DNA from: Prauserella isguenensis
GTDB taxonomy: Bacteria; Actinomycetota; Actinomycetes; Mycobacteriales; Pseudonocardiaceae
Direction of reading: 5' to 3'
Length of the DNA: 64,000 nucleotides
Assembly: GCF_014191605.1 (NCBI RefSeq)
Contig: NZ_JACHWU010000001.1
Span: 1,674,001-1,738,000 of the forward strand
Part shown: piece after piece, positions 14,312 through 27,653 of the stretch
Layout of the letters: every line of letters begins with the position of its first letter
Position numbering within the stretch: the first letter of the stretch is position 1
Notes under the pieces: model-generated
Told to the model about the DNA's origin: nothing
The model's input: the letters and a program-made list of their open reading frames with translations, nothing else
Database searches by the model: none
Made by a program: the position numbers and the translations under genes

Positions 14312-14485
14312 GGTCACGAACACCCGAACAAACCACGGGTGCGGAGAACCCTTCGCGTCGAGCGGCGGAAGTGAAAACCCTTCGCGCGTGATCGCAGGGC
14401 CGGGATACGGTCTTCCCGCCGGTGCCGCCGGATAGTCCGCGGCTGCGGCCGTCCGCTGATCCCAGCGTGAAAGTAGGTTTCATCA

Positions 14486-14878
14486 ATGGCGTGCCGTATG
14501 GGTGAGCTCGTGCTCGATTGCCACGACCCCGAGGTGCTGGCGCGGTTCTGGTGCGAGGTCCTCGATTTCGTCGAGCTCGGCCGGGAGCATCCCGAGGGCG
14601 TCGACGGCTACGCCATCGAGATCGGCCCGCGCGAAGGATTCGGCGGTCCGCAGCCGACGATCATCCTCCGCACCGGTGAGCCGGCCGAGGCGAAGTCCAA
14701 CCTGCACATCGACCTCAATCCCACCGATCGCGACTCCGACGCGGAACTCGAACGGTTGCTGAAACTCGGGGCACGTCCGGCCGACATCGGCCAGACCGGC
14801 GAGGAACCGTGGAACGTGCTCGAAGACCCCGAGGGCAACTCCTTCTGCCTGCTCAAGGGCCGTCTCGATCCGCTATGA
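14486..14878 (+). CDS. VOC family (glyoxalase-like) protein
   Basis: Small vicinal-oxygen-chelate fold protein, 130 residues. It begins GELVLDCHDPEVLARFWCEVLDF, contains SNLHIDLNPTDRD and ends with WNVLEDPEGNSFCLL, the standard beta-alpha-beta-beta-beta arrangement in two half-modules. Proteins of this type include dioxygenases, isomerases and antibiotic-binding proteins; nothing here fixes the activity. It is 174 bases downstream of GH106. The spacer has two copies of AACCCTTCGCG but no other recognisable element. Confidence 0.85.
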   Translation: MACRMGELVLDCHDPEVLARFWCEVLDFVELGREHPEGVDGYAIEIGPREGFGGPQPTIILRTGEPAEAKSNLHIDLNPTDRDSDAELERLLKLGARPADIGQTGEEPWNVLEDPEGNSFCLLKGRLDPL

Positions 14879-14933
14879 GGCCCGCGGACGTCCCGAACAC
14901 AGAACACGCGGGGAGTGCGATCGAGCGTTCGTC

Positions 14934-17009
14934 TCAGCAGCGTTCCTGCAGTCGCGACGGCCACCAGATACGTCCGCCGATGTCGATGGCCAGGGCCGGG
15001 ACGAGGAGAGACCGCACGATCAACGTGTCCAGCAGAACCCCGAACGCGACGATGAACGCGATCTGCGCGAGGAACAGGATCGGCAGCACGGCCAGTGCGG
15101 CGAAGGTCGCGGCGAGTACGACACCCGCCGAGGTGATGACGCCACCCGTGACCGTCAGACCGCGCAGTACACCGGCCCGGGTGCCCTGCCGGATCGTCTC
15201 CTCGCGAACCCTGGTCATGAGGAAGATGTTGTAGTCGATACCGAGCGCGACGAGGAACACGAATCCGAACAGCGGCACGACGGGATCAGCGCCGGGAAAG
15301 TCCAGCACGTGGTTGAACACGAGAGCGGAAACGCCCATGGTCGCGGCGAACGACAGCACGACCGTCCCGATCAGCAGCAGCGGCGCCAGCAGTGAGCGGA
15401 GCAGCAGCGCGAGCACCGCGAAGATCACCACGAGCACGATGGGAACGATCAGATCGCGATCTCGCTCCGAGATGTCCTGCGTGTCGAGCAGGGTCGCGGT
15501 GCGGCCGCCGACCTTCGCATCGGAGTCCGGAACCGCGTGCACGGCGCTGCGCAGCCGTTCCACGGTGGCGACGGCCGATTCCGAATCGGCCGGATCGGAC
15601 AGGACCGCCTCGATGCGGGCCAATCCGTTCGCGGTCCGGGGCTCACCGTTCGGGCCGGTCGTGACCGATACCTCGGAAACGCCGTCGACCTGTGCCGCGG
15701 CCGCCACGTCGGCTACCCGGTCCGCGTCGGTGATGATCGTGGCGGGGCTGCCGGAACCAGCGACGAAATGTTCGCTCAGGACCTCCTGGCCGGCGACCGA
15801 GTCCACCTCGTTCAGGAAGATGTCGGACTCGGCGGTGCCGGAGGCCCGCAGCTGTGGGAGGAACGCCGCCCCGACGAGCAGCACCACGGTGGTGCCCACC
15901 CAGATCAGCCTCGGTGACGAGCCGACGCGGGCCGCGATCCGTCGCCAGACGCCGCTCTCCTCGGGATGCGGTGAGCCCAGTTTCGGCCGGTACGGCCAGA
16001 ATGCAGATCGGCCGAAGACGGCGAGCGCAGCCGGAAGGAAGGTCGTCGACGCGACCAGCGCGGAGCCGATACCGATCGCGGCCACCGGCCCGAGGCCCTG
16101 ATTGGAGCGGAGGTCGCTGAAGAGCAGGCAGAGCACGCCGAGGATCACTGTGCCCGCCGATGCAGCGATCGGCTCGATGGTGGCCTTCCACGCGGTCGCC
16201 ATCGCGGCCAGCCGGTCGTCGGAGTCCCGCAACTGCTCCCGGTAGCGCGACACCAGCAGCAGCGCGTAGTCGGTCGCCGCGCCGAACACCAGGATGAACA
16301 GGATGCCCTGGCTCTGCCCGTTGAGGTCGATGAAGCCCTGGTCGGTGAGCAGGTAGACGACAAGACTCGCCAGCCCGAGCGCGAACACGCCCGACAGCAG
16401 CACCAGGACCGGAAGGATCGGGCTGCGGTAGACCACGACCAGGATGAGCGCGACGACCGAGCCTGCGACGAGCAGCAGGAGTCCGTCGATGCCGCCGAAC
16501 GCCTCGCCCAGGTCGGCGCCGAGTGCCGCGGGCCCGGTGACGAGCACCGTCAGGCCGTCGGGCCGGTCGGGGGCCAGGGTCTCGCGGATCTCCTCGACCG
16601 CCGTGTCGGGAGCGGCGTCGGCGGCGATCGGCACCACCAGTTGCAGTGCCCGGCCGTCCTCGGAGGGGATGGGCGGCGGCAATGCACCCGGCACGCCGGG
16701 TATCGCGGTCAGGTGCGCCGACTTCTCCGAGAGGAACCGTCGGTCTGCCGGCGTCACCTCGGCGGTTCGTTCGGCGACGACGATTGCGGGCACCGATTCG
16801 TCCTCGGTGAACATGCGCTCCAGCTCGGCCACATTGGTCGACTCGGCCGTCTCGGGCAGGAACGCGGAGTTGTCGTTCTCGGCGACCTCGCTGAGTTTGC
16901 CTGCGAACGGTCCGCCCACGCCGCCCACGACGAGCCAGCCGACGATCAGCAGAGCGGGAAGCAGCCACCGCAGGACGCCACGTCGACGTGCCGTGCCAGT
17001 AGGGTTCAT
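14934..17009 (-). CDS. MMPL family (RND) transporter
   Basis: Integral membrane transporter of the MMPL branch of RND exporters, 691 residues, probably driven by the proton gradient and exporting a lipid or hydrophobic compound. ATG 17009 is chosen over an upstream in-frame start because GGGAGAG sits six to seven bases ahead. The topology repeats twice: one helix (LLPALLIVGWLVVGG), a large extracytoplasmic loop, then a group of about five helices; FGAATDYALLLVSRYREQL and FLVALGIDYNIFLMTRVREE are the two repeated helix-4 motifs whose Asp-Tyr pairs relay protons. A MarR regulator is transcribed divergently from the same 85-bp gap, which suggests local control and a drug-efflux-like role. Confidence 0.92.
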   Translation of the reverse strand: MNPTGTARRRGVLRWLLPALLIVGWLVVGGVGGPFAGKLSEVAENDNSAFLPETAESTNVAELERMFTEDESVPAIVVAERTAEVTPADRRFLSEKSAHLTAIPGVPGALPPPIPSEDGRALQLVVPIAADAAPDTAVEEIRETLAPDRPDGLTVLVTGPAALGADLGEAFGGIDGLLLLVAGSVVALILVVVYRSPILPVLVLLSGVFALGLASLVVYLLTDQGFIDLNGQSQGILFILVFGAATDYALLLVSRYREQLRDSDDRLAAMATAWKATIEPIAASAGTVILGVLCLLFSDLRSNQGLGPVAAIGIGSALVASTTFLPAALAVFGRSAFWPYRPKLGSPHPEESGVWRRIAARVGSSPRLIWVGTTVVLLVGAAFLPQLRASGTAESDIFLNEVDSVAGQEVLSEHFVAGSGSPATIITDADRVADVAAAAQVDGVSEVSVTTGPNGEPRTANGLARIEAVLSDPADSESAVATVERLRSAVHAVPDSDAKVGGRTATLLDTQDISERDRDLIVPIVLVVIFAVLALLLRSLLAPLLLIGTVVLSFAATMGVSALVFNHVLDFPGADPVVPLFGFVFLVALGIDYNIFLMTRVREETIRQGTRAGVLRGLTVTGGVITSAGVVLAATFAALAVLPILFLAQIAFIVAFGVLLDTLIVRSLLVPALAIDIGGRIWWPSRLQERC

Positions 17010-17035
17010 CCTCACTCTCCCGGTCACCTCGCCCG

Positions 17036-17052
17036 CAATATTTCGATTGTCA
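17036..17052. promoter_or_regulatory. possible MarR operator between the MMPL and marR genes
   Basis: The gap contains CAAT and ATTG arms around a six-base spacer, followed at once by TTGTCA, whose reverse strand reads TTGACA. It is the only dyad in the 85-bp gap, but its arms are only four bases, so the call is tentative. Confidence 0.3.
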
Positions 17053-17094
17053 AACTACACGCGAGGAGTCGAACCGGCACGAAGGAGGTAGTAC

Positions 17095-17598
17095 ATGGCA
17101 GGCAGCGAGGCCGCGCGTGGCCGGCCGGATTCCGGCGATCCGGACGACGTGTTGATTCGCCTGCTGCGGCAACTGAACGTGGAGACGGACCGGTTCGCCG
17201 AGATGTTCGGTGAGGCGCACGGCTTGTATCGGACCGACCTCAACGCGCTCGTCGTGATCATGGATGCGGTTCACCGCGACGATGCGATCTCGCCAGGAGA
17301 ACTGGCCCAAGCACTGCATCTGAGCCCTTCGGCCACCACAGCGGTCCTCGACCGTTTGGCCAAGGCCGGGCACGTCGAACGGCGCCGGGGCGCGAGCGAC
17401 GGGCGGCGAACGGAACTCCGCCTTCCGGAGGCGACACTACGGCTCGGCGAAGAACTGTTTCGCCCGCTCGGGGCAGAGCTGGGGCGGGAGTGGTCGTCGT
17501 TCGACGCCGACGAGCGCGACACCATCGTCCGATTCCTCACGGTCAGCATCCGGGCGACCACCACCGTCCGAATGCGACTGGCCGACGACGGCAAGTGA
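17095..17598 (+). CDS. MarR family transcriptional regulator
   Basis: Winged-helix regulator of 167 residues with a strong AGGAGGT ribosome site five bases before ATG. The DNA-binding domain reads ISPGELAQALHLSPSATTAVLDRLAKAGHVERRRGASDGRR, i.e. recognition helix and wing with the conserved Asp-x-Arg. The C-terminal helices form the dimer interface. It is divergent from the MMPL transporter and most likely represses it, with release by a small phenolic or drug ligand; ligand identity cannot be read. Confidence 0.9.
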   Translation: MAGSEAARGRPDSGDPDDVLIRLLRQLNVETDRFAEMFGEAHGLYRTDLNALVVIMDAVHRDDAISPGELAQALHLSPSATTAVLDRLAKAGHVERRRGASDGRRTELRLPEATLRLGEELFRPLGAELGREWSSFDADERDTIVRFLTVSIRATTTVRMRLADDGK

Positions 17599-17655
17599 TC
17601 GGGTGCGGGCGAGTAGGCACACGGTAGCCTGCTCGACGGACGCGGACAGGCGACC

Positions 17656-17686
17656 GGGGCGGCGGACAACTCGTGCCCGCCGCCCC
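17656..17686. terminator. hairpin between converging marR and fasciclin genes
   Basis: GGGGCGGCGG (17656-17665) pairs with CCGCCGCCCC (17677-17686), 10 bp with an 11-base loop. It can serve both converging genes. Confidence 0.7.
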
Positions 17687-17704
17687 GTGCTCCGGTCTGT
17701 CGGG

Positions 17705-18394
17705 TCACTGCTTCCCGGGCTGCAGGACCTCGTCGATGACGAAAACGGTCGCGTTGGCCGTCGGCACGTTGCCGCACAGCACCTTCGCCCCGTTGACGGT
17801 CGGAGCGTCGGCGCTGCCGCCGATCTTCACCTCTCCGCCCTGGACGGTCTCGACCGAGCCTGCGTCGACGAGGCCCGCTGCGTCCATGCGCTCAGGCACG
17901 ACGTGGAAGGTCAGCGTCTTGGTCAGGTCTTCCTTCATCTCGGGGTCGTTGAGCAGCGCGTCGAGCTGGTCCGCCGGGATCTCGTCGAACGCGGGGTCCG
18001 CAGGTGCGAACACGGTGTAGTTGGCGTCCTGCTTGTTCAGGGTGTCGACCAGCCCGGCGGATTTCACCGCGGCGGTGAGCTTCTTCAGCAGCGGGTTGTT
18101 GCTGGCAGCGGTCCCGACCGGGTCGTCGACCATGCCCTGTACGGACCCTTCGTCGTTCGGGTCCGTGGGCACCTGCGAACAGCCGGGGCCGAAGACATCG
18201 TCGGCGGTGGTCATGCCGTCGTTCATGCCTCCGTCGCCCGACGAGCTCGGCGGAGCCGACGACGGTGCCTGTCCCTGTCCACCGCCCTGGTCGCTCTGGG
18301 CAGCGGTGTCGTCCCCGCTACCGCAGGCGCTCAGTCCGAGTGCGAGTGCGGCGACCGCACCCGTTACCGCGGCATGCCGACGAATGGTCCCCAT
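17705..18394 (-). CDS. fasciclin-domain lipoprotein (MPT70/MPT83-like)
   Basis: Surface lipoprotein of 229 residues with one FAS1 domain, related in kind to mycobacterial MPT83/MPT70. ATG 18394 is preferred to 18415 since GAGGAG precedes it by nine bases. The signal peptide ends in lipobox LSAC (Cys about residue 25), then a Ser/Gly/Pro-rich linker. The FAS1 domain (about residues 90-229) shows NPLLKKLTAAVKSAGLVDTL, YTVFAPADPAFDEIP, LTFHVVPERMDA and VFVIDEVLQP, its H1 and H2 boxes. The gene lies beside sigK/rskA and has a SigK-like promoter upstream; in M. tuberculosis the fasciclin antigens are the main SigK targets, so regulation by the linked sigma factor is inferred. Confidence 0.92.
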   Translation of the reverse strand: MGTIRRHAAVTGAVAALALGLSACGSGDDTAAQSDQGGGQGQAPSSAPPSSSGDGGMNDGMTTADDVFGPGCSQVPTDPNDEGSVQGMVDDPVGTAASNNPLLKKLTAAVKSAGLVDTLNKQDANYTVFAPADPAFDEIPADQLDALLNDPEMKEDLTKTLTFHVVPERMDAAGLVDAGSVETVQGGEVKIGGSADAPTVNGAKVLCGNVPTANATVFVIDEVLQPGKQ

Positions 18395-18441
18395 CGGAAT
18401 CAACTCCTCGTTCATCTGTGTACGTCGGTTCTCTCTCAGGT

Positions 18442-18469
18442 ATTCGGCGCCGCGGTTCGCACCGATTGG
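18442..18469 (-). promoter_or_regulatory. SigK-type promoter of the fasciclin gene
   Basis: Read on the minus strand, CCAATC (18469-18464) and CCGAAT (18447-18442) are separated by exactly 16 bases, about 48 bases before the start codon. It matches two other copies in this locus and resembles the mycobacterial SigK consensus as I recall it (CCATCC, CCGAAT). Confidence 0.7.
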
Positions 18470-18500
18470 TGTCCGAAGTGGAATTATCGAGGAGCCGCGG

Positions 18501-20144
18501 CTACGTGGCGGTGCAGAAGATCGAGTGCCACCCCGTTGCGCCGTCCGGGACCGGTGGTACCCGGCGAGCCTGCTGCGTGTAGCCGGATTTGTCGGTGGCG
18601 CGGCACTCGATGTCGTGGCCGCCCGGTGTGAACTCGAGCTCGGCTCGCCACATTCGCCAGGTCTGCTCGTTGACCTCCGTGGCGAGATCGGCCTGCTGCC
18701 ACGGGCCGCCGTCCACTCGCACCTCGACCGTATCGATAGCGGTGGGTTGCGCCCAGGCGACGCCGGCGATCGTGAACGCCCCGGCGGGGAACTTCTGGAA
18801 CGGCTGCGGGCGGTCGATCCGGGACTGGGTCTTGATCGGCGCACGTTCTGCCCAGCCGCGCTCTTCCCAGTAGGTCTGTTTGTCGAAGGTCGTCAGCTCC
18901 ATGTCGACGAGCCATTTGGTCGCGGACAGGTAGCCGTAGAGTCCGGGCGTCACCATCCGTACCGGGAAACCGTGCTCGACGGGCAGCGCTTCGCCGTTCA
19001 TGCCGTAGGCGAGGAGTGCGCCGCGGTCGGCCTCGCGCAGCACGTCCAGCGGGGTGCCTGCGGTGTAGCCGTCCACGCTCGTGCTGAACACCTGCTCGGC
19101 ACCGCTCCGGACGCCGACCTCGTCGAGCAGGTCCCGGATCGGGACGCCGGTGAACGTCGCGGTCGAGACGTAATCACCACCGACCTGATTGGACACACAG
19201 GTCAGCGTTACGGTCCGCTGCTCGACCCTTCGGGTGATCAGGTCGTCGAAGCCGAGTATCAACTCCTTGTCGACCATACCGTGGATACGGAGCCGCCAAT
19301 CGTCCAATCGGATCGTCGGCACGGACAGCGCGGTGTCGACTCGGTAGAAAGCCCTGTTGGGGGTGATGAACGACGGCGTCCCCAGTGAAGCGAAATCGGC
19401 GCCGCGCGGGACGGGCGGATTAGGGGGAATGCGCCGCCCGATCTCGGTGCGGGCCGCGTCCACTCCGGACCGGCTCGTGAGAAACCGTCCGCCCACCGCG
19501 GCTCCGCCGGCGACCGCCGTGACACCTGCGGCGGCGAGCACGAAGGTGCGCCGTGAGGTCGCCGAGGTTGTGGCCGCCGTCGCGACGTCGTCCCGAGCGT
19601 CCTCTCGGGCGTCCTCTCGGGCGTCCTCTCGGGCGTCGTCACGGTCGGCACCTTCCGTGGCCGTGCCGTCGTCGGTGCGGTGTGCGGTCGTCGAGCGCGA
19701 TGCGAGCCGGTGGAGCCACCCGAACGCCCCGAGGCCGGAGACCAGCGCCGCCACGGCCGGAAGGGCGTCGAGGACTGTCAGATCGCGACGGAGCGACGCC
19801 GCGACCACCCCGGCCACACCGAATGCTCCGATGACCGCGAGACCGGGTGTCGCGGTGCGCCGCGAGAGCAGCCCAGCGATGACCGCGAGCAGCAGAATCA
19901 CCAGACCCATGCCGCCGAGCAGGACGAGCTTGTTCGATTCGCCGAACTGTCGGATGGCGAACTGTTTCACCGGTTCCGGCGTGAGGTCGATCGCGGTGTT
20001 GCCGACGGCGAGGTACGGCGAAGCGTTCGGCCGGGTGAGCCCCGAGGCCAGATGCCCGATGCCAAGGGCCAATGCGACCGAGGAAATACTTGCGAACATC
20101 GCACGGAGCGCACCGGGCGGGGGAGTGGCCGCTGGAGTTGGCAT
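18501..20144 (-). CDS. membrane-anchored molybdopterin (sulfite-oxidase family) oxidoreductase
   Basis: 547 residues. N-terminal about 150 residues carry four hydrophobic segments (for example VALALGIGHLASGL and LVLLGGMGLVILLLAVIAGLL). A hydrophilic linker with AREDAREDARED repeats follows, then SRRTFVLAAAGVTAVAGG, a twin-arginine-like fifth segment that would place the rest outside. The catalytic domain has TLTCVSNQVGGDYVSTATFTGVP, whose Cys is the expected molybdenum ligand, and a C-terminal Mo-co dimerisation domain (VRVDGGPWQQADLA). ATG 20144 has no ribosome site but begins seven bases after a SigK-like -10, so a leaderless start is likely. Substrate unknown; extracytoplasmic sulfite or sulfoxide chemistry is the usual guess for this family. 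Confidence 0.9.
   Translation of the reverse strand: MPTPAATPPPGALRAMFASISSVALALGIGHLASGLTRPNASPYLAVGNTAIDLTPEPVKQFAIRQFGESNKLVLLGGMGLVILLLAVIAGLLSRRTATPGLAVIGAFGVAGVVAASLRRDLTVLDALPAVAALVSGLGAFGWLHRLASRSTTAHRTDDGTATEGADRDDAREDAREDAREDARDDVATAATTSATSRRTFVLAAAGVTAVAGGAAVGGRFLTSRSGVDAARTEIGRRIPPNPPVPRGADFASLGTPSFITPNRAFYRVDTALSVPTIRLDDWRLRIHGMVDKELILGFDDLITRRVEQRTVTLTCVSNQVGGDYVSTATFTGVPIRDLLDEVGVRSGAEQVFSTSVDGYTAGTPLDVLREADRGALLAYGMNGEALPVEHGFPVRMVTPGLYGYLSATKWLVDMELTTFDKQTYWEERGWAERAPIKTQSRIDRPQPFQKFPAGAFTIAGVAWAQPTAIDTVEVRVDGGPWQQADLATEVNEQTWRMWRAELEFTPGGHDIECRATDKSGYTQQARRVPPVPDGATGWHSIFCTAT
19597..19644. repeat. 12-bp tandem repeat in the oxidoreductase linker
   Basis: Three exact copies of GCGTCCTCTCGG plus one diverged copy. 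On the coding (minus) strand they encode the charged ARED repeats between the membrane domain and the twin-arginine segment. Exact DNA identity suggests recent slippage. Confidence 0.9.
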
Positions 20145-20151
20145 ATCGATG

Positions 20152-20179
20152 ATTCGATGCCGCGGCGGAGACCGATTGG
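20152..20179 (-). promoter_or_regulatory. SigK-type promoter of the molybdopterin oxidoreductase
   Basis: On the minus strand CCAATC (20179-20174) and TCGAAT (20157-20152) are 16 bases apart. The predicted start coincides with the ATG at 20144. The spacer also shares CGGT and CCGCGGC with the fasciclin promoter at the same positions. Confidence 0.68.
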
Positions 20180-20185
20180 TCCGGG

Positions 20186-20343
20186 TCAGTCCTTCTTGGA
20201 TGGCAGAGGGAGGAAGCCGCTCGTGCGCGCGACGTAGTCGGCGTACCCCGGTAGCGGCCCCGCAACCGTGCGATACCGAAGGTGACCACGACGACGAGCA
20301 GCGCCACACCGAACGCGAGCGTCGCTGCGGCCGGCAGGGTCAT
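20186..20343 (-). pseudogene. DUF1295 (steroid-reductase-like) gene with internal deletion
   Basis: ATG 20343 with GGGAGG upstream starts MTLPAAATLAFGVALLVVVVTFGIARLRGRY, the usual first helix of DUF1295 membrane proteins. After that the frame is lost, and a second frame on the same strand reads GYADYVARTSGFLPLPSKKD and stops at 20186, the usual C terminus of the same family. About 190 codons between them are missing. In M. tuberculosis the homologous gene (Rv0446c) lies directly before sigK, so this is most likely a relic of that operon. Confidence 0.72.
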
Positions 20344-20465
20344 CGGGTCGCCTCCCGGATCGCAGTCGTGGCGCCGACTCCGGCTGTCGCAGTACGCATG
20401 TCGAGTATTCCGAGCCGGGGTGTGGTGGATCGGCCGTGCGTGAATGTGTGCGCGTCGCCACACCG

Positions 20466-20493
20466 GCAATCGTTTCGCGGAGCGGCTCCGAAT
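20466..20493 (+). promoter_or_regulatory. SigK-type promoter upstream of the remnant ORF and sigK
   Basis: GCAATC (20466-20471) and CCGAAT (20488-20493), spacing 16. It is the third copy of the motif in 2 kb and points towards sigK, which has no obvious promoter of its own, so SigK autoregulation is inferred. The rest of the interval 20344-20634 holds no gene I can support. Confidence 0.65.
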
Positions 20494-20634
20494 GACGGTC
20501 ATGCACATCGGTGAACCGGAGACAGGGGCCGTGCCCGCTGACACGGCGCCACCGCCCGGCGTTGCTGTGTCCCCACCCCACGGCGATCGGTCGTGCGGTC
20601 GTGTTCCGTGCCGGACGAGGAACTGGAATGTGGC

Positions 20635-20856
20635 ATGACCGAACCGACCGTGGCGGTGATCGGTGCCGGGGCGTCAGGGCTGACGGCTGCCTATCGACTG
20701 AGCCGCCGCCACCGGTCCTCCGACGTCGCGGAGCTCTGCCGCGGCGAAACTCTGCCGCGGATGTGGGAGTTCTATCGGGCATACAGCGAAGCGGGATTCC
20801 GCTCCGGTTATCTCGACGTCCGGCAGTTCGGTATGCACAAGCCCACTCGTGACTGA
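20635..20856 (+). pseudogene. fusion scar: FAD oxidoreductase start joined to cyclopropane synthase end
   Basis: A 73-codon frame starts MTEPTVAVIGAGASGLTAAY, the dinucleotide-binding N terminus of a Rv0449c-like NAD(P)/FAD oxidoreductase, and from about residue 36 reads ETLPRMWEFYRAYSEAGF then RSGYLDVRQFGMHKP, the C-terminal end of a cyclopropane-fatty-acyl-phospholipid synthase (UfaA1/Rv0447c type). The DUF1365 gene that normally lies between, and nearly all of both flanking genes, are gone. The frame is still open and carries a weak ribosome site, so a short peptide might be made, but neither enzyme can function. Confidence 0.75.
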
Positions 20857-20879
20857 AGAATGTTCGAGCGGCGTGGGAG

Positions 20880-21509
20880 ATGTCGCGACCATGGGAGTTG
20901 ATCGGTGTGGATGAGGACCCTCAACCCGTTGAGGCGCCGCCGGGCTGGGCGGACGCACCACAGCCGGCTCCGAATGCGCGTGCCCTGTTGGTAGAGGTCG
21001 CCAAGGGTGACGAAGCGGCGTTCGAGCAGCTCTACGAGATGATCGCCAGGCCGGTCTTCGGACTGGTGCGGCGCTTGCTCCGGGACGCCGCGCAGTCCGA
21101 GGAAGTCACCCAGGAGGTGCTGGTCGAGGTGTGGCGGACCGCGACGCACTATTGGCCCGACAAAGGTAGTGCCATGACCTGGGTACTGACCCTCGCGCAT
21201 CGTCGGGCGGTGGACCGGGTGCGGGCCGAACAGTCTGCCGCCGACCGTGAGGCGAAGGTGGGTTCCCGATCGGGTGCGCCCGCGTTCGACGAGGTCAGTG
21301 AATCCGTGCTCAGTCGCCTGGAACAGCGCCAAGTGCGCCGATGCATGTCGACATTGACCGAACTGCAGCGGGAATCGGTGCTGCTGACCTATTACCGTGG
21401 CTACACCTACCGAGAGGCTGCCGAGCTGGTGGGCTCGCCGACGGCCACGGTGAAGACCCGCCTACGGGACGGGCTGATCCGCCTACGCGATTGCCTGGGG
21501 GTGGGCTGA
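20880..21509 (+). CDS. sigK: ECF RNA polymerase sigma factor SigK
   Basis: ECF sigma factor of 209 residues from ATG 20880; an in-frame GTG at 20907 is also possible. Region 2 reads FEQLYEMIARPVFGLVRRLLRD, SEEVTQEVLVEVWRTA and AMTWVLTLAHRRAVDRVR; region 4 reads LTELQRESVLLTYYRGYTYREAAELVGSP followed by TVKTRLRDGLIRLRDCLGV. The stop codon overlaps the rskA start (TGATG), a usual arrangement for translational coupling with the anti-sigma factor. Neighbouring fasciclin and operon relics identify it as SigK rather than another ECF. The promoter at 20466-20493 probably drives it through the remnant ORF. Confidence 0.9.
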   Translation: MSRPWELIGVDEDPQPVEAPPGWADAPQPAPNARALLVEVAKGDEAAFEQLYEMIARPVFGLVRRLLRDAAQSEEVTQEVLVEVWRTATHYWPDKGSAMTWVLTLAHRRAVDRVRAEQSAADREAKVGSRSGAPAFDEVSESVLSRLEQRQVRRCMSTLTELQRESVLLTYYRGYTYREAAELVGSPTATVKTRLRDGLIRLRDCLGVG

Positions 21510-22261
21510 TGAGCAACGAGATGGCGAGCCTCACCGGTGCCTACGCGGTGGACGCGCTCACAGGGCCGGAACGTGCCGAGTTCGAGCACCATCTCGCCGA
21601 ATGCGGCGAGTGCGCGCAGGAAGTGCGGGAGTTGCGGGAGACGGCGGGCATGCTCGGCCTCGCCGCTGCCGAGGACCCGCCAGCCGACCTCAAGGGCCGC
21701 GTACTGCACGAGATCACACACACCCGGCAGGAGCCGCCGACTGCGGCCGCACCGGTGCCGATCGGCACCCGGAAGTCGCGAGCGACGTCCCGGTGGGCCA
21801 CGCGCCTGGCGGCTGCCGCGTCCGTCGTCGCGATCGGCCTGGCCGCCGTGTTCGGTGTCGCCGCGTGGCAGTCACAGCAGGAACTCGAGCGGGCACAGCA
21901 GCGAATCGAGCAGGCTGGCGAGCGCGGAGCCGAGATGGCCCGCGTGCTGCACGCACCGGACGCCCGGATCATCCACGCGTCCGAGGGACGGGCGGTGGCG
22001 ACCGCGGTCGTCTCGGTCGACCTCGGCAAGGTCGTCTTCATGGGCGAACACATGCCGGCCGCACCCGAGGACAAGGTGCACCAGCTCTGGGCCATCGATG
22101 AGCAGGGAGCGACCTCGATGGGGGTGCTCACCGGTGGTGACGTACCGGTTGCGGCGGACATGCCGAGAGAGACCACGAAACTCGGTGTGACGACCGAACC
22201 GGCGGGCGGGTCGCCACAGCCGACCGCCGACCCGTTCATGTTGCTGTCCCTGCGTGCCTGA
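21509..22261 (+). CDS. rskA: anti-sigma-K factor RskA
   Basis: Single-pass membrane anti-sigma factor, 250 residues. The cytoplasmic anti-sigma domain (about residues 1-75) contains AEFEHHLAECGECAQEV, the HxxxCxxC zinc-type motif. WATRLAAAASVVAIGLAAVFGVAAW (about residues 92-116) is the membrane helix, followed by a predicted coiled stretch and the extracytoplasmic RskA C-terminal domain with VSVDLGKVVFMGEHMPAAPEDKVHQLWAI. In mycobacteria RskA holds SigK at the membrane until regulated proteolysis. One-base overlap with sigK. Confidence 0.92.
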   Translation: MSNEMASLTGAYAVDALTGPERAEFEHHLAECGECAQEVRELRETAGMLGLAAAEDPPADLKGRVLHEITHTRQEPPTAAAPVPIGTRKSRATSRWATRLAAAASVVAIGLAAVFGVAAWQSQQELERAQQRIEQAGERGAEMARVLHAPDARIIHASEGRAVATAVVSVDLGKVVFMGEHMPAAPEDKVHQLWAIDEQGATSMGVLTGGDVPVAADMPRETTKLGVTTEPAGGSPQPTADPFMLLSLRA

Positions 22262-22467
22262 ACCGGAAAGGTCTACGTGTGATGCCGGCCCCGGGCGCGC
22301 TGTGCGCCCGAGATCTCCTTGGTCAGCGACAACTCAAGGCTGCACGCGGCTGCACCCGGCACGCTCCGGAACTCGGCGACGAGCCGGCCGTGCATTGTCG
22401 ACCGAACGGATCGACGACGCGGTGTGACCACGGACGGCGAGCGGCCTACGCTGCACGTCGACCGGGG

Positions 22468-22487
22468 CCCGGCCCTCGGGGGCCGGG
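22468..22487 (-). terminator. hairpin after the small lipoprotein gene
   Basis: CCCGGCCC, loop TCGG, GGGCCGGG, 12 bases beyond the stop codon of the minus-strand lipoprotein gene. Otherwise 22262-22467 between rskA and this hairpin holds nothing I recognise. Confidence 0.6.
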
Positions 22488-22498
22488 GGCCGTCGAAC

Positions 22499-22864
22499 TC
22501 AGCACTTCTCCTTGGGGACGTAGCCCTGTTCGCAGGCGTATTCGAGCTGCGCCTCGCCCGCGGTGTCGTCGCGGCCGCGGCCGCCTGGGTCGAGGTAGCC
22601 CTGGTATTCCTTGCAGTCCGCGTTGAACTCGCCCGCCTCGAGCGCGCGTTCACCACAGCCGGGGCCGGTGTCCGCGGCTCCCCGGGGCCCGGCCGACGAA
22701 CCCGGCGAGCTCGGCGACTGCGGTACCGAACCCGAGGGCGGCTCGGCGGACGCCGACGTGCGCGGCGCGGGGGCGGGGCCCGGCTCCTCGGAGCATGCGG
22801 CGCCCCCGGCCAGCACGACGGCAGGCAACAGGAGTGCCGGTACAAGTCGTGCCCACGTCATCAT
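22499..22864 (-). CDS. small secreted Cys-containing protein, probable lipoprotein
   Basis: 121 residues, family not recognised. The first 24 residues form a signal peptide (RLVPALLLPAVVLAGGAAC) whose Cys could be lipidated, though the -3 residue is Gly rather than Leu, so the lipobox is atypical. A Pro/Ser/Ala-rich linker follows. The last 55 residues contain four cysteines (GCGERALEAGEFNADCKEY, EYACEQGYVPKEKC), suggesting a small disulfide-bonded domain. The start lies 127 bases from the divergently placed anti-sigma ATPase stop; no operon partner is evident. Confidence 0.7.
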   Translation of the reverse strand: MMTWARLVPALLLPAVVLAGGAACSEEPGPAPAPRTSASAEPPSGSVPQSPSSPGSSAGPRGAADTGPGCGERALEAGEFNADCKEYQGYLDPGGRGRDDTAGEAQLEYACEQGYVPKEKC

Positions 22865-22991
22865 TCACCCATTGTGGGGTCGTGTCGGAGGTGGTCCGGC
22901 TGCGGGTACCCGCAACCGGTCGCCCGGCGAGTCGCTCACCTGCAGCGCAGCCCCGCTTTCGAGGGGCGCGATCCCGCCGGACACAGTGTCG

Positions 22992-23456
22992 TCAGCGGCC
23001 GAACGCCGGTTGCGAAACCCCTCGTTCGGGCGATGCCGGTGGCGGGTACGGCAGCTCGGCCCATACGACCTTCCCGTCCTGCCCCGCGGGGCGGCGGGCC
23101 CGGTCGACACCCCAGTCGTCGGCCAGTGCCGCGACGAGCAGCAGGCCACGACCGTGGTCGACGTCCGGACCCGGATGCAGCACCTCGGGACGTCGCGGGT
23201 CGGCGTCGGACACCTCGATGCGCAGCCGCCCCGCGCCGGTGCGCACCCGCAGCCTGCACGGCGGACGTCCGTGCACGACGGCGTTCGTCGCCAGTTCCGT
23301 GACCAGCAGGAGTACGTTCTGCCGGGACGACTCGTCGGTGACACCGAGTGCGGCGTCCACGGTGTGTCGGGCGTCCGTGGGACTGCGCAGGTCGGTGGCC
23401 AGCGCGATGTCTACCACGAGGGTGTCGGCCGCGACGCGGCTCTGCTCAATCATCAT
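22992..23456 (-). CDS. RsbW-like anti-sigma/serine kinase ATPase (HATPase_c)
   Basis: GHKL-fold ATP-binding protein of about 154 residues if started at ATG 23456; a GTG at 23525 would add 23 residues. It shows the N box LLLVTELATNAVVHG, the G1 box VSDADPRRP and the G2 segment GRGLLLVAALADDWG. Proteins of this size are partner-switching anti-sigma factors or regulators of SpoIIE-type phosphatases. A SpoIIE phosphatase is divergently transcribed 270 bases away, suggesting a functional pair, but no STAS-domain anti-anti-sigma gene is next to them. Confidence 0.83.
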   Translation of the reverse strand: MMIEQSRVAADTLVVDIALATDLRSPTDARHTVDAALGVTDESSRQNVLLLVTELATNAVVHGRPPCRLRVRTGAGRLRIEVSDADPRRPEVLHPGPDVDHGRGLLLVAALADDWGVDRARRPAGQDGKVVWAELPYPPPASPERGVSQPAFGR

Positions 23457-23727
23457 CGTCGGCCCCGTCGGCTCGGCGGTCCTTGCCGTGGATGAGGCGG
23501 AGTCGGTGCGGACGGACGCGAACACCCAGTGCCCGGTGACTCCGCCGATCGGGCGTCGACCGCGGATTGTTCACAACCCCCGTGTGCCCTCTGTGGCGCC
23601 TCGGTACACGCACCCGGGCGAACTTCCCACGATGGTCTTCTTGGGTGACACCTCTGTGGGTAGTGCGAGACATCTTCGCTGGCAGCGGGCATAGTGGTAA
23701 CCCGGCTTCTGGCGGAGGTGAACCCCG

Positions 23728-25140
23728 GTGAGCGTCGAACGTGGGTTGAGCGGCCCGCTCAGCACGGAACTCGCCAGCGCTGTGCGCGCGGGGCGGTTGC
23801 CCCCCGACGGGTGGGCGGTGCTGGCAGACGTGCTCGCGAACCTGGACCCGGCGACGCCCGTGGGCGACGTCGTGGCGTCCTTGACCGATGCCGTGCCGGG
23901 CGAGCTGGGTGAAGCGGAGCTGCCCTCGCAGGAGGTGCGCACTCCCGCGCGTGGCAGGCCGGACCGCGACCTGCGGTGGCGGCTGGCCGACAGGCCCGTG
24001 ACGGGACCGCCGTCACGCGACGACGTCGACCGCACGGCCTTTCTCGACGAGGTCAGCCGCGCATCCGCGACGTCGCTCAACAGCACGGAGATGCTGTCCC
24101 AGGTCGCCGCGCTCGTGCAGTCCCACGGGCTTGCCGACAGCACGCGCGTGTGGCGCTCGACCGACGACGGTCTGCGGTGCGCGACCCCGTCGTCGGGGGA
24201 CGTGCGTCCCGACCTGACCGCCCAGCAGACCCTGATCACGCGGCGCTCCGTCCGCGCCGGGACGAGCAGGCTGAGCGTGCCGCTGCTGGCGGGCCGCCAT
24301 GCGCTCGGTGTGCTGGATCTGGAACGCAGGCATCGCGGCTTCACGGCCGACGACATCTCGCTCGCACACGCCGTCGCGAGTCGTGCCGCGCTCGGTCTGC
24401 GTAATGCCCACGAATACGAGCGGGAGCACGAGCTCGCGCAGCGCCTGCAGCACGCGATGTTGCCGGCACTGGTCGAACTGGACGAGTTCGACATCGCGGC
24501 GCGATACCGGTCGTCGACGCGCGGTGTCCACATCGGTGGGGACTGGTACGACGCCTTCAGCCGTTCCGACGGGACGGTCGTGCTCACCGTCGGCGACGTC
24601 ACCGGCCACGGTCTCGACGCGGCCGTCGTCATGGGACAGCTGCAGAACGCGCTGCGCGCCTACGCGATGGAGGGGCACGGGCCCGCGTCGTCGTTGCGGC
24701 TCGTGCACGAACTGCTGCGGGAGAGCCGGGGTTCGCTGTTCGCCACGGCCGTGGTCGTCGAGGTGCAGGTGCGCAGCGGCATGATCCGGTGGGCGAGTGC
24801 GGGGCATCCGCCGCCCCTGGTGCAGGACGCCGACGGGGATGTCGGATACCTCGACGCCGACCACGGACCGATGCTCGGCATCGATCTGTCGCCGTCGATC
24901 CCCGAACACCGGCGCAGGCTCACCCCGGGCTCGTCCGTCGCCCTGTTCACCGACGGGCTCATCGAACGCCGCAGCAGTGACATCGACGCCGGAATGGCGC
25001 GGCTGGCGACGGCGTTCGAACGGTGCTGTGACGGCACGGTCGGGGAACGGACCGACGATGTGCTGCACGAGATGCTCGGCGGCACCGATCACGACGACGA
25101 CGTCTGCCTGCTGCTGTGCCGTTGGCTGGGGCGCGCCTGA
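23728..25140 (+). CDS. GAF-SpoIIE PP2C-type protein phosphatase
   Basis: 470 residues, starting at GTG 23728 with GGAGGTGA just upstream. Residues about 95-235 form a GAF sensor domain (FLDEVSRASATSLNSTEMLSQV, LSVPLLAGRHALGVLDLE). A short helix (EREHELAQRLQHAMLP) leads to the SpoIIE/RsbU phosphatase domain, with GGDWYDAF, TVGDVTGHGLDAAVVM, WASAGHPPPL, LFTDGLIERR and the C-terminal DDDVCLLL acidic motif for Mn2+ binding. It probably dephosphorylates a STAS-domain antagonist in a stress sigma pathway, opposed by the neighbouring ATPase. The N-terminal about 90 residues are unassigned. Confidence 0.9.
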   Translation: MSVERGLSGPLSTELASAVRAGRLPPDGWAVLADVLANLDPATPVGDVVASLTDAVPGELGEAELPSQEVRTPARGRPDRDLRWRLADRPVTGPPSRDDVDRTAFLDEVSRASATSLNSTEMLSQVAALVQSHGLADSTRVWRSTDDGLRCATPSSGDVRPDLTAQQTLITRRSVRAGTSRLSVPLLAGRHALGVLDLERRHRGFTADDISLAHAVASRAALGLRNAHEYEREHELAQRLQHAMLPALVELDEFDIAARYRSSTRGVHIGGDWYDAFSRSDGTVVLTVGDVTGHGLDAAVVMGQLQNALRAYAMEGHGPASSLRLVHELLRESRGSLFATAVVVEVQVRSGMIRWASAGHPPPLVQDADGDVGYLDADHGPMLGIDLSPSIPEHRRRLTPGSSVALFTDGLIERRSSDIDAGMARLATAFERCCDGTVGERTDDVLHEMLGGTDHDDDVCLLLCRWLGRA

Positions 25141-25237
25141 CGGGGTCGGGCACGCGCGCGCGGTGGCGGCTGCCGAGGTGCGGCTCCTGCCGCTGCTCTC
25201 GACGCCCGACCGGCCGTACGTCACAGGGGCTAGGTTT

Positions 25238-25256
25238 TTAACTTAGGCTTGCCTAT
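25238..25256. promoter_or_regulatory. IdeR/DtxR iron box
   Basis: TTAACTTAGGCTTGCCTAT matches 14 of 19 positions of the IdeR/DtxR consensus, including the core TTAGGC and CCTA. It overlaps the -10-like TATCTT of the following gene, as expected for iron-dependent repression. Confidence 0.75.
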
Positions 25257-25259
25257 CTT
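25254..25259 (+). promoter_or_regulatory. -10 element of a probable leaderless transcript
   Basis: TATCTT ends seven bases before ATG 25267 and there is no ribosome site, so transcription likely starts at the ATG itself. Confidence 0.5.
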
Positions 25260-25266
25260 GGTCCGC

Positions 25267-26289
25267 ATGTCTGGAACTCTGCCCGGTCCCTACCGGATGT
25301 CCCGCCGGAGCCTGCTCAGTGGTGCCGCCGCTCTTGCCGCCACCGGCTTCCTGTCCGCGTGCGGCCCCAACACCTCGGACGACGACGGCGGAGGTGACGG
25401 CTCGGGCGGGTGGTCGTTCACCGACGACCGCGGCGAGAAGGTGACGCTCGAGAGCACCCCGAAGCGCATCGCGGGTCTCAACGACGCCATCGCGTCGCTG
25501 TGGAACTACGGCATCGTGCCGGTCGCGTCGTTCGGCTACACCGGCCTCGACGCCGACGTGAACTTCGACGGCAAGGACACCTCGAAGGTCACCGAGGTCG
25601 GCGCCACGTACGGCGAGATCAATCTGGTGCGCCTCGAGGCGCAGAAGCCGGATCTGATCATCACGCACGCCTACCCCGAGGACGCCTCCGGCAAGGTCGA
25701 CCCGAAGAAGCCGCTGTACGGCTTCAAGGACCTCAAGCAGCAGGAGGACGCCGCGAAGATCGCGCCGATCGTCGCGCTGGCGATGACCGGCTCCGCCGAC
25801 AAGGTCGTCCAGCGCACCACCGAGTTCGCGAAGTCGCTCGGCGCCGACCAGCAGCTGCTCACCGAGAAGAAGCGGGAGTACGACTCCGCGCGCGACCGGC
25901 TTCGCGAAGCCGCCTCGTCCGGCCTGACCGTGATGGCGGTCGCGGCCTACGAGACCGACGGCGTCCACATCGCCAAGGCCGAGGACGACCCGGCGCTGCG
26001 CAGCTACACCGAACTCGGCCTGAAGTACCCCGACCCGGGCGGCGATGCGTACTACTGGCGCCAGGTGGCGTGGGAGAACATCACCGACTTCCGCACCGAC
26101 GTGGTGCTCTACTCGCTGCGCGCCATGAGCGGCGACGAGATGCTCAAGCAGCCAACGTTCGCGAACCTGCCCGCCGCCGAGGCGAAGCAGGTCTACCCGT
26201 GGGAGTTCAGCGCGATGGACTACGTCGCGCAGGCCGCCACGATCAACCGCCTCGCCGAGAACCTGGAAGGCTCCCGCCGGGTCGTCTGA
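25267..26289 (+). CDS. iron-siderophore ABC transporter substrate-binding lipoprotein
   Basis: Exported binding protein of 340 residues. ATG 25267 gives MSGTLPGPYRMSRRSLLSG with a twin-Arg pair and lipobox LSAC. The mature part is a class III periplasmic-binding fold: WSFTDDRGEKVTLESTPKRIAGLNDAIASLW at the start, then LEAQKPDLIITHAYPE, the long connecting helix region and VYPWEFSAMDY near the end. The iron box just upstream supports a role in ferric-siderophore capture. No permease or ATPase gene is adjacent, so it must work with a transporter encoded elsewhere. It converges with the coiled-coil gene across a hairpin. Confidence 0.9.
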   Translation: MSGTLPGPYRMSRRSLLSGAAALAATGFLSACGPNTSDDDGGGDGSGGWSFTDDRGEKVTLESTPKRIAGLNDAIASLWNYGIVPVASFGYTGLDADVNFDGKDTSKVTEVGATYGEINLVRLEAQKPDLIITHAYPEDASGKVDPKKPLYGFKDLKQQEDAAKIAPIVALAMTGSADKVVQRTTEFAKSLGADQQLLTEKKREYDSARDRLREAASSGLTVMAVAAYETDGVHIAKAEDDPALRSYTELGLKYPDPGGDAYYWRQVAWENITDFRTDVVLYSLRAMSGDEMLKQPTFANLPAAEAKQVYPWEFSAMDYVAQAATINRLAENLEGSRRVV

Positions 26290-26296
26290 CGTCTCC

Positions 26297-26329
26297 GCGG
26301 TGGGTCCGCCACCCCGGCGGGCCCACCGC
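26297..26329. terminator. bidirectional hairpin
   Basis: GCGGTGGG pairs with CCCACCGC and inside it CCGCC with GGCGG, giving 13 bp around ACCCC. It lies between two converging genes. Confidence 0.75.
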
Positions 26330-26408
26330 GAGCGCGTCGGCGTCGGCGGGCCACGCCGTGGCCCCCGGCGACCCCGCGTCGGCGACCGGCGAGGTCATCG
26401 GGAGAGCG

Positions 26409-27653
26409 TTACTGCGAGGACGTGTCCTTCGGGCCGGGCGACGGCCGCTGCGCAGGAGTGCCGGGGGTCGTCGCCTCGGCGGACGAGTCGCCGTCTCCGG
26501 CGACGGAACCCGCCGACGCCGAGTTCCCGCCGTTCGACCGTGCGGTGTTCGACGTCGTGCTGCCCCCGTCGGCCGCCGTGCTGTTCGTGCCGACCTTCAC
26601 GGGCCGCTGTGCGGGTCGCGTGGCCTCGGGGTCTCCGGATCCGTCTGACGACTCCGACGTCGGATCGGCAGCGGCCCCGTTCCCGGTGGTGTGCGAGAGC
26701 TGGACGGCGTTGGCCGTCTTGGCCGCGTCGAACGGCGTGGTCAGCGACTCCGGCAAATCCGAGAGCTCGGTGTCCTCGTCGTCGACCGGATCGAGTGCCG
26801 ACTCGCCCGCGTGCAGGGCGTCCTCAGCGGCCTTGAGCCGGGCACGCGCCTCGTTGCGGATCTTGGTGAGCCGTTCGACGACCCCGTTCGCCTCGGAGGT
26901 CCGGCGCTCGGCGTCCGCGGTCGCGTCGTCAACGAGCTTCTTGGCCTTCGCGGTGGCCTCGTCGACCATGCGCTTGGCCTCGGTCGTCGCCTCGGCGATC
27001 CTGCGTTCCGCCGCGTTCTTGCTGGCTTCCTTGGTGTCGGCGACGTGCTTCTCGAGCGCGGCCTTCTCGGCGGTCATCTTCTTGTCGAACTCGCGCTCGA
27101 TGGTGCGGCGCTTCTCCTCGGCCTCGCGGTCGAGTCGCTCCTGCCGCTCGGCGGCCTCGGTCGTCATCTTCTGCACGTCGGCCTTGGTGGAGGCCAACGC
27201 GTCGGTGTGCTCGCGCTGCAGTTCCTCGGCGTGCTGGTCGAGGGTCTCGACCAGTTTCATGTAGCGCTCGTGCAGCTTCTTCGAGACCTCGCCGCTCTCG
27301 GCCCACGTATTCGTGGCCGCCTCCTCGGCGCGGTTCACGATCTCCTCGGCCCGCGTGTTGGCGAGGTCGACGGAACGCTGCATGCGCTCGTCGAGATCCT
27401 CGGGACGCTCCGGCGGCTTCTTCAGCTCTTCGACACGTTGCTGCAGCCGGGTCACCTCCCGGCGGGCGTTCTCGAGTTCGCGGGACAGCGTCGTGAGCCG
27501 GGCGTTCGCGTTGTCGCGATCGGCCACGATGCGCTGCACCTGAGCCTCGAGGTGCTCGACGTACTGCAGGACCTGGGCGCGGTCGAACCCGTGCCACGCC
27601 TGGCTGAATTCCCGCCGCAGCGGCAGCAGTCGGTTGTCGTGCTCGGAAGCCAT
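26409..27653 (-). CDS. DivIVA/Wag31-like coiled-coil protein
   Basis: 414 residues. The upstream part of the open frame to 27752 is discarded because ATG 27653 starts a sensible protein. Residues about 10-50 (LLPLRREFSQAWHGFDRAQVLQYVEHLEAQVQ) resemble the DivIVA N-terminal membrane-targeting motif, with FDRAQV in place of the usual FDxxEVDxFL. Residues about 50-290 are almost continuous Glu/Lys/Arg/Ala coiled coil, and the last 110 are disordered, Ser/Thr/Gly-rich. Likely a cytoskeletal scaffold for polar growth or membrane organisation; not the essential Wag31 itself, which is usually shorter and sits in the dcw cluster. Confidence 0.8.
   Translation of the reverse strand: MASEHDNRLLPLRREFSQAWHGFDRAQVLQYVEHLEAQVQRIVADRDNANARLTTLSRELENARREVTRLQQRVEELKKPPERPEDLDERMQRSVDLANTRAEEIVNRAEEAATNTWAESGEVSKKLHERYMKLVETLDQHAEELQREHTDALASTKADVQKMTTEAAERQERLDREAEEKRRTIEREFDKKMTAEKAALEKHVADTKEASKNAAERRIAEATTEAKRMVDEATAKAKKLVDDATADAERRTSEANGVVERLTKIRNEARARLKAAEDALHAGESALDPVDDEDTELSDLPESLTTPFDAAKTANAVQLSHTTGNGAAADPTSESSDGSGDPEATRPAQRPVKVGTNSTAADGGSTTSNTARSNGGNSASAGSVAGDGDSSAEATTPGTPAQRPSPGPKDTSSQ

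Follow-up and report, generated by a model that had tools for sequence, protein, structure and literature searches.

The sigK locus and its features

The window analysed here, a stretch of 64,000 nucleotides of Prauserella isguenensis DNA, contains intact genes for the sigma factor SigK, its anti-sigma factor RskA, a fasciclin-domain lipoprotein and a membrane Moco oxidoreductase, set among fragments of FAD oxidoreductase, CFAS, DUF1295 and photolyase genes. The features are as follows, with omega values referring to the branch leading to the window.

17705..18394, minus strand: MPT83-like fasciclin-domain lipoprotein gene, intact, lipobox LSAC (Pfam Fasciclin 9.2e-31; omega 0.18)
18442..18469, minus strand: predicted SigK-type promoter of the fasciclin gene, CCAATCG-N15-CCGAAT (PWM score 21.5; strict genome match)
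18501..20144, minus strand: gene for the membrane Moco oxidoreductase, sulfite oxidase/MsrP superfamily, intact (Pfam Oxidored_molyb 3.7e-44; omega 0.26)
20152..20179, minus strand: predicted SigK-type promoter of the Moco gene (PWM score 17.0; strict genome match)
20186..20343, minus strand: DUF1295 relic, 19 C-terminal codons (low end) out of frame with 31 N-terminal codons (158 nt versus 780)
20407..20433, minus strand: decayed SigK-type promoter of DUF1295 (spacer 14 versus 15; CCGAAT changed to CGGAAT)
20466..20493, plus strand: predicted SigK-type promoter of the sigK operon, autoregulatory type, GCAATCG-N15-CCGAAT (PWM score 18.7; strict genome match)
20635..20715, plus strand: FAD oxidoreductase relic, first ~26 codons (Shine-Dalgarno GGAGGG changed to GGAATG)
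20726..20856, plus strand: CFAS relic, last ~43 codons and stop, in frame with the FAD relic
20880..21509, plus strand: sigK, intact (NCBIfam NF007228 SigK, 269.7 bits, cut-off 226; omega 0.10)
21509..22261, plus strand: rskA, anti-SigK factor gene, intact (Pfam RskA_C, PF10099, 2.9e-25; RskA_N, PF22618, 1.1e-6; omega 0.25)
22282..22420, plus strand: photolyase relic in two scraps, one N-terminal (22282-22359, +1 frameshift) and one internal (22360-22420)

The sigma factor is identified as SigK by an NF007228 score above the cut-off, by the presence of both RskA domains in the gene that follows, and by predicted SigK-type promoters, conserved in relatives, before its own operon and before the fasciclin gene. 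The GTG at 20907, which has its own GGGAG ribosome site, is the likely sigK start, the ATG of rskA overlaps the sigK stop codon, and the start of the fasciclin gene was picked from its GAGGAG ribosome site. A tandem DDARE-type repeat (GCGTCCTCTCGG units) lies within the Moco enzyme gene at ~19590-19650, where the alignment to the congener locus L031 breaks.

Relics of the enzyme genes

The ORF at 20635-20856 (plus strand, 73 codons) joins MTEPTVAVIGAGASGLTAAYRLSRRH in frame to the C-terminus of a CFAS protein, RMWEFYRAYSEAGFRSGYLDVRQFGMHKPTRD, which ends at the stop codon. In Pfam its front half matches NAD_binding_8 (5.9e-6) and its back half the last 38 positions of CMAS (0.0054). In the DUF1295 relic, the 31 N-terminal codons are 84% identical and the 19 C-terminal codons 89% identical to an intact congener. 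DNA alignment shows the FAD-CFAS and DUF1295 scraps to be collinear with two intact congeners at ~78-88% identity, which excludes a chance resemblance. Both relics had been proposed in the first-pass annotation from the sequence alone, and the Pfam matches and the collinear alignments show them to be real. That annotation confined the damage to 20186-20856; damage is indeed present there, but it extends further, to a deletion between the divergent genes and to photolyase scraps at 22282-22420. In the photolyase relic, ~25 codons from the start of the gene, disrupted by one inserted base, are followed by a piece from ~codon 184 onward. The spliced alignment of this relic to a congener photolyase scores 218 as compared to a maximum of 192 with shuffled tails.

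Intact clusters in close relatives

A search for sigK orthologs in 60 related genomes found them in three of the six congeners: Prauserella salsuginis DSM 45264 (G005, 91% identical), G006 (90%) and G001 (76%). The first two, whose DNA is 85-88% identical to the window, contain the complete cluster, in which fasciclin, Moco and DUF1295 genes on the minus strand are divergent from FAD, DUF1365, CFAS, sigK and rskA genes on the plus strand. The ancestral operon postulated from the window is thus found intact in close relatives. Directly after rskA, each of the three congeners that have sigK carries a photolyase gene, as do many Streptomyces loci. These congeners also share with the wider family a DUF1295 gene that diverges from FAD; in many Streptomyces loci DUF1295 is in line with the operon, and the divergent orientation therefore looks to be an older trait of the family. 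The two remnants thus point in opposite directions by inheritance, and the inversion that had been suspected from their orientation is not required.

The third congener cluster (L033, in G001) also speaks for an intact ancestor, although it has frameshifts in FAD and DUF1365. We have not counted the split FAD and DUF1365 frames of L033 and of L036 (G011) as further decay; in G001 draft errors are the likelier explanation because split frames recur in its photolyase and in a CFAS paralog that is unrelated. We note that in many family members, among them L033, L035, L037 and L133-L135, DUF1295 has another CFAS gene as its neighbor, a more distant one (~30% identical); the intact congener loci L031 and L032 are without this second CFAS, an older loss in that lineage. 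In a comparison of window positions 14000-27000 with G001-G006, congeners G002-G004 lack the sigK block altogether, only 360 bp separating the flanks in G003, and G001 has the block and the flanks on separate contigs, which suggests a patchy or mobile locus within the genus.

Deletions

The comparison was made with one genome per species, and the deletions are read from the assembly. Relative to the two intact congeners, the net loss is 3052 or 3040 nt (~3.05 kb) from the FAD start to the CFAS stop, 622 nt inside DUF1295, and 131 or 115 nt between the two divergent start codons. Collapse of an ancestral FAD-DUF1365-CFAS/DUF1295 cluster by several deletions, as first suggested from the remnants, is thereby supported. 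Read by eye, the FAD-CFAS joint has only a few bases of homology; the DUF1295 joint, which is out of frame, has a short and imperfect match close by (GGCCGCTAC / GGCCCGGCTAC). The deletion joints are not flanked by long repeats, which argues against assembly collapse.

None of the lipid operon genes (FAD, DUF1365, CFAS, DUF1295) is intact in the window, where scraps only are found. The P. isguenensis genome (4.95 Mb, 100% completeness) contains no DUF1295 (PF06966), DUF1365 (PF07103) or photolyase domain (PF00875) anywhere and no full-length FAD ortholog; a generic CFAS paralog that is also present in the congeners is still there. The scraps adjoin parts that are in use: the DUF1295 tail lies at the Moco promoter, the FAD start lies downstream of the sigK promoter, and the CFAS tail precedes sigK, such that the distance from the sigK promoter to sigK is now ~400 nt as compared to ~3.5 kb before.

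SigK-type promoters

The motif CCAATCC-N15-CCGAAT is found upstream of the FAD operon, Moco and fasciclin genes in many family members, and a SigK-type motif lies ~15-50 nt before sigK in most relatives that have no operon. High conservation of SigK sites among Actinobacteria and, in M. tuberculosis, autoregulation of sigK via the Rv0449c promoter have both been reported (PMC7509140), and the pattern observed here fits them. In the window, predicted SigK-type promoters are retained at three sites, those of the sigK operon, the Moco gene and the fasciclin gene, and the sigK-operon promoter has the same PWM score as in both intact congeners. A strict form of the motif (SCAATCS-N16-CGAAT) has exactly three matches in the 4.95 Mb genome, all of them at this locus; there are no matches to a reversed control in the same genome, and none to the motif itself in the three congeners without sigK.

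The fourth promoter, that of DUF1295, has decayed relative to the P. salsuginis site (GCGATCC-N15-CCGAAT), and the other three have been kept. It is also weak in the intact congener locus L032, so it may have been dispensable earlier. At the Moco gene the predicted -10 ends 7 nt before the ATG (window 20144-20152), with the same spacing in congeners, and its mRNA is probably leaderless. A looser motif, SMMATCS-N16-CGAAH, was uninformative, as codon-like CATC matches dominate genomes with and without sigK; most of its 58 matches in P. isguenensis are of this uninformative kind, and weaker candidate SigK targets may lie elsewhere in the genome. Away from the sigK locus, the strict motif has a single match in each intact congener: L160 (G006:C3:48196-48223) and L159 (G005:C2:434995-435022), the latter upstream of a permease-like ORF.

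Selection on the relics and on their neighbors

Parsimony counts on the window branch give 16 nonsynonymous and 11 synonymous changes for the FAD, CFAS and DUF1295 scraps (omega 0.56, with ~1.0 for the CFAS part; the DUF1295 scraps are too short to be assessed alone), as compared to 66 and 110 (omega 0.21) for sigK, rskA, fasciclin and Moco genes together. The contrast between the scraps and their live neighbors has a Fisher p of 0.037, with only 27 substitutions on the scrap side, and the scrap branch length is partly older than the deletions, a time that the low omega of the live genes spans too. Between the two intact congeners the same stretches have an omega of 0.20. The scraps are truncated or frameshifted relative to intact orthologs, with relaxed selection for those that were counted, as expected of pseudogenes. 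The short ORFs are not kept by purifying selection, which is in favor of the first-pass annotation. Survival of sigK, rskA and their promoter, also part of that annotation, is borne out by intact domains, low omega and the kept motif. Its further claim, that the locus shows the pair to be kept for the fasciclin and Moco genes, is too strong as worded; these genes are plausible targets, as suggested by promoter motifs and selection.

The joined ORF deserves closer scrutiny, since it is in frame, retains a GxGxxG Rossmann start and a promoter, and stops 23 nt short of the sigK ORF, as might be expected of a new functional small protein or of a translated leader coupling translation to sigK. We regard either role as very unlikely. 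The ORF lacks the Shine-Dalgarno found in both intact congeners, its 12 nonsynonymous and six synonymous changes include replacements of residues that are identical in the congeners (V13A, L21R and W to R), and it occurs in no other genome examined; sigK has its own GGGAG site, and an in-frame joint is expected by chance one time in three. Because the Shine-Dalgarno is lost and omega is 0.56 in the scraps as opposed to 0.21 in the live neighbors, the ORF is best read as a relic, its peptide presumably being without function, although the omega test with its 27 changes is not strong by itself.

The genome is a draft of 15 contigs and was judged from the assembly alone, such that the deletions could be artefacts or mis-joins, but this is barely credible given at least four separate lesions that include frameshifts and point decay, the lack of long repeats at their ends, their location in one 1.84-Mb contig, and the absence of the missing families from the whole genome. 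It is just as improbable that P. isguenensis was without the operon from the start, having acquired a sigK-rskA-fasciclin-Moco cassette that was minimal already. Such a history would fit the uneven distribution of the sigK locus among the congeners (G002-G004 lack it, and in G001 it is on another contig) and the minimal cassettes found elsewhere, but the collinear DUF1295, FAD, CFAS and photolyase scraps at congener-level identity show that a full cluster was once present; that cluster may itself have been transferred before its collapse. Rather less remote, though still unlikely, is that sigK and rskA are themselves decaying and simply have not been lost yet, in keeping with the three congeners without the whole locus and with dead enzyme genes on both sides of the pair. 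Against this, omega on the same branch is 0.10 for sigK and 0.25 for rskA and 0.56 for the scraps, a difference to which constraint before the deletions contributes; both reading frames are open and three of the four SigK promoters are intact.

Parallel erosion in the Pseudonocardiaceae

A close sigK is present in 100 of 200 sampled family genomes, and among those 100 a FAD gene lies within 6 kb of sigK in 40 and elsewhere in 26, with none in the remaining 34. Visible erosion beside an intact sigK-rskA pair occurs at loci of four other lineages (L131, L132, L042 and L136). L131 (Actinopolyspora) lacks two segments that L133 and L134 have, one of ~3.1 kb reaching from FAD to a point before sigK and one of ~2.0 kb that runs from DUF1295 into the second CFAS. 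L132 and L042, from two Amycolatopsis, are eroded relative to L135; they are counted separately here and may share an early event. In L136 (Prauserella muralis) DUF1365 is down to 38 residues. These loci resemble the window in having FAD, DUF1365 or DUF1295 as scraps, and differ in their deletion ends, in loss of the second CFAS in three of them, and in fasciclin and Moco genes that are unlinked where found.

Motif scans of the four genomes place a SigK-type site before an unlinked fasciclin lipoprotein gene with an adjacent Moco gene in G211, G206 and G021; the scan of G070 gave no match of this kind. At L131 no SigK-type promoter scores above threshold; those of the sister loci are weak and lie ~4.05 kb upstream. 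G206 has another fasciclin locus (L154, G206:C1 3324000-3331000), in which the fasciclin gene keeps a strict SigK-type promoter; the neighboring Moco gene matches in pieces only (aa 44-83, 382-431 and 462-546) and is apparently decaying.

A collapsed SigK cluster

Taken together, the window very probably represents the remains of a SigK-controlled cluster that collapsed by deletions and kept its regulators and two probable target genes. The ancestor would have had fasciclin, Moco and DUF1295 genes on the minus strand, divergent from FAD-DUF1365-CFAS-sigK-rskA-photolyase on the plus strand, with a SigK-type promoter before each transcription unit. Deletions with little homology at their ends would then have occurred on this species' own branch, taking the DUF1295 interior, all that lay between the early codons of FAD and the late codons of CFAS, some of the leader region between the divergent genes, and the bulk of the photolyase. 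Judging from the retained motifs, SigK would still autoregulate and drive the fasciclin and Moco genes, and the cell would have lost one arm of a photo-oxidative stress regulon, that for lipid modification and photorepair. By analogy, the lost genes are plausibly that arm and the retained genes an envelope arm; membership in a photo-oxidative (singlet oxygen) regulon is suggested by a resemblance in gene content.

At stake is the purpose of SigK, and with it the placement of the mycobacterial antigens MPT70 and MPT83 under its control. The locus separates a retained core (SigK itself, fasciclin and Moco) from the dispensable FAD-DUF1365-CFAS-DUF1295 and photolyase genes, showing which parts of a control system related to that of tuberculosis can be discarded and which are kept. 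It offers a small model for the signal and function of the fasciclin/Moco pair apart from other targets, and the reduction of the strict motif to three promoters, the scars and the parallel cases amount to a natural knock-out series.

Comparison with known systems

In the mycobacterial sigK locus (Rv0449c-Rv0444c), FAD-type, DUF1365, CFAS (UfaA1) and DUF1295 genes precede SigK-RskA. The window resembles this locus and its MPT70/MPT83 regulon in having SigK-RskA with a fasciclin antigen-type gene as candidate target, and differs in that its four enzyme genes are dead. The Pseudonocardiaceae depart from the mycobacterial arrangement in that DUF1295 is divergent rather than in line between CFAS and sigK, and the Prauserella congeners in having a photolyase after rskA and fasciclin and Moco genes linked to sigK.

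The RpoE of Rhodobacter sphaeroides is in a different ECF group from SigK, and yet RpoE-ChrR, like the SigK cluster, is a sigma/anti-sigma pair beside cyclopropane/FAD-type genes. These genes, RSP_1090/91, lie beside rpoE in a singlet-oxygen regulon that also includes CfaS, the photolyase PhrA and a fasciclin gene, and full activation of RpoE requires RSP_1090/91 and CfaS (PMC7074977). No homologs of RSP_1087-1091 or of the fasciclin gene are listed for R. capsulatus (PMC7074977), a loss analogous to that in the window. The Chlamydomonas singlet-oxygen response includes CFA1/2, DUF1365, DUF1295 and a fasciclin protein (PMC4067076), and in M. kansasii light induces the homologs of MPT83/MPT70 (PMC9861118).

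We suggest, tentatively and as one possibility that we do not favor strongly, that the SigK regulon has been repeatedly pruned across the Pseudonocardiaceae to SigK-RskA and a fasciclin lipoprotein, with or without the Moco redox enzyme, the lipid/photolyase arm being dropped. Because the Rhodobacter cyclopropane genes help to activate their sigma factor, each collapse may rewire the input of SigK from a photo-oxidative to another envelope signal, and fasciclin/Moco would be its core function; if true, this core would be why mycobacteria keep MPT83/MPT70 under SigK.

A minimal mpt83-sigK-rskA cassette is described, for example, in Yersinia enterocolitica (Veyrier 2008, as cited in PMC7509140). 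The window is similar to it, with intact SigK and RskA and an intact MPT83-type fasciclin lipoprotein preceded by a predicted SigK site, and without the lipid operon. It is distinguished by being visibly the product of loss, and by the Moco enzyme that remains with its own SigK-type promoter. The locus is a reductive collapse to this already known minimal cassette, with scars that can still be read.
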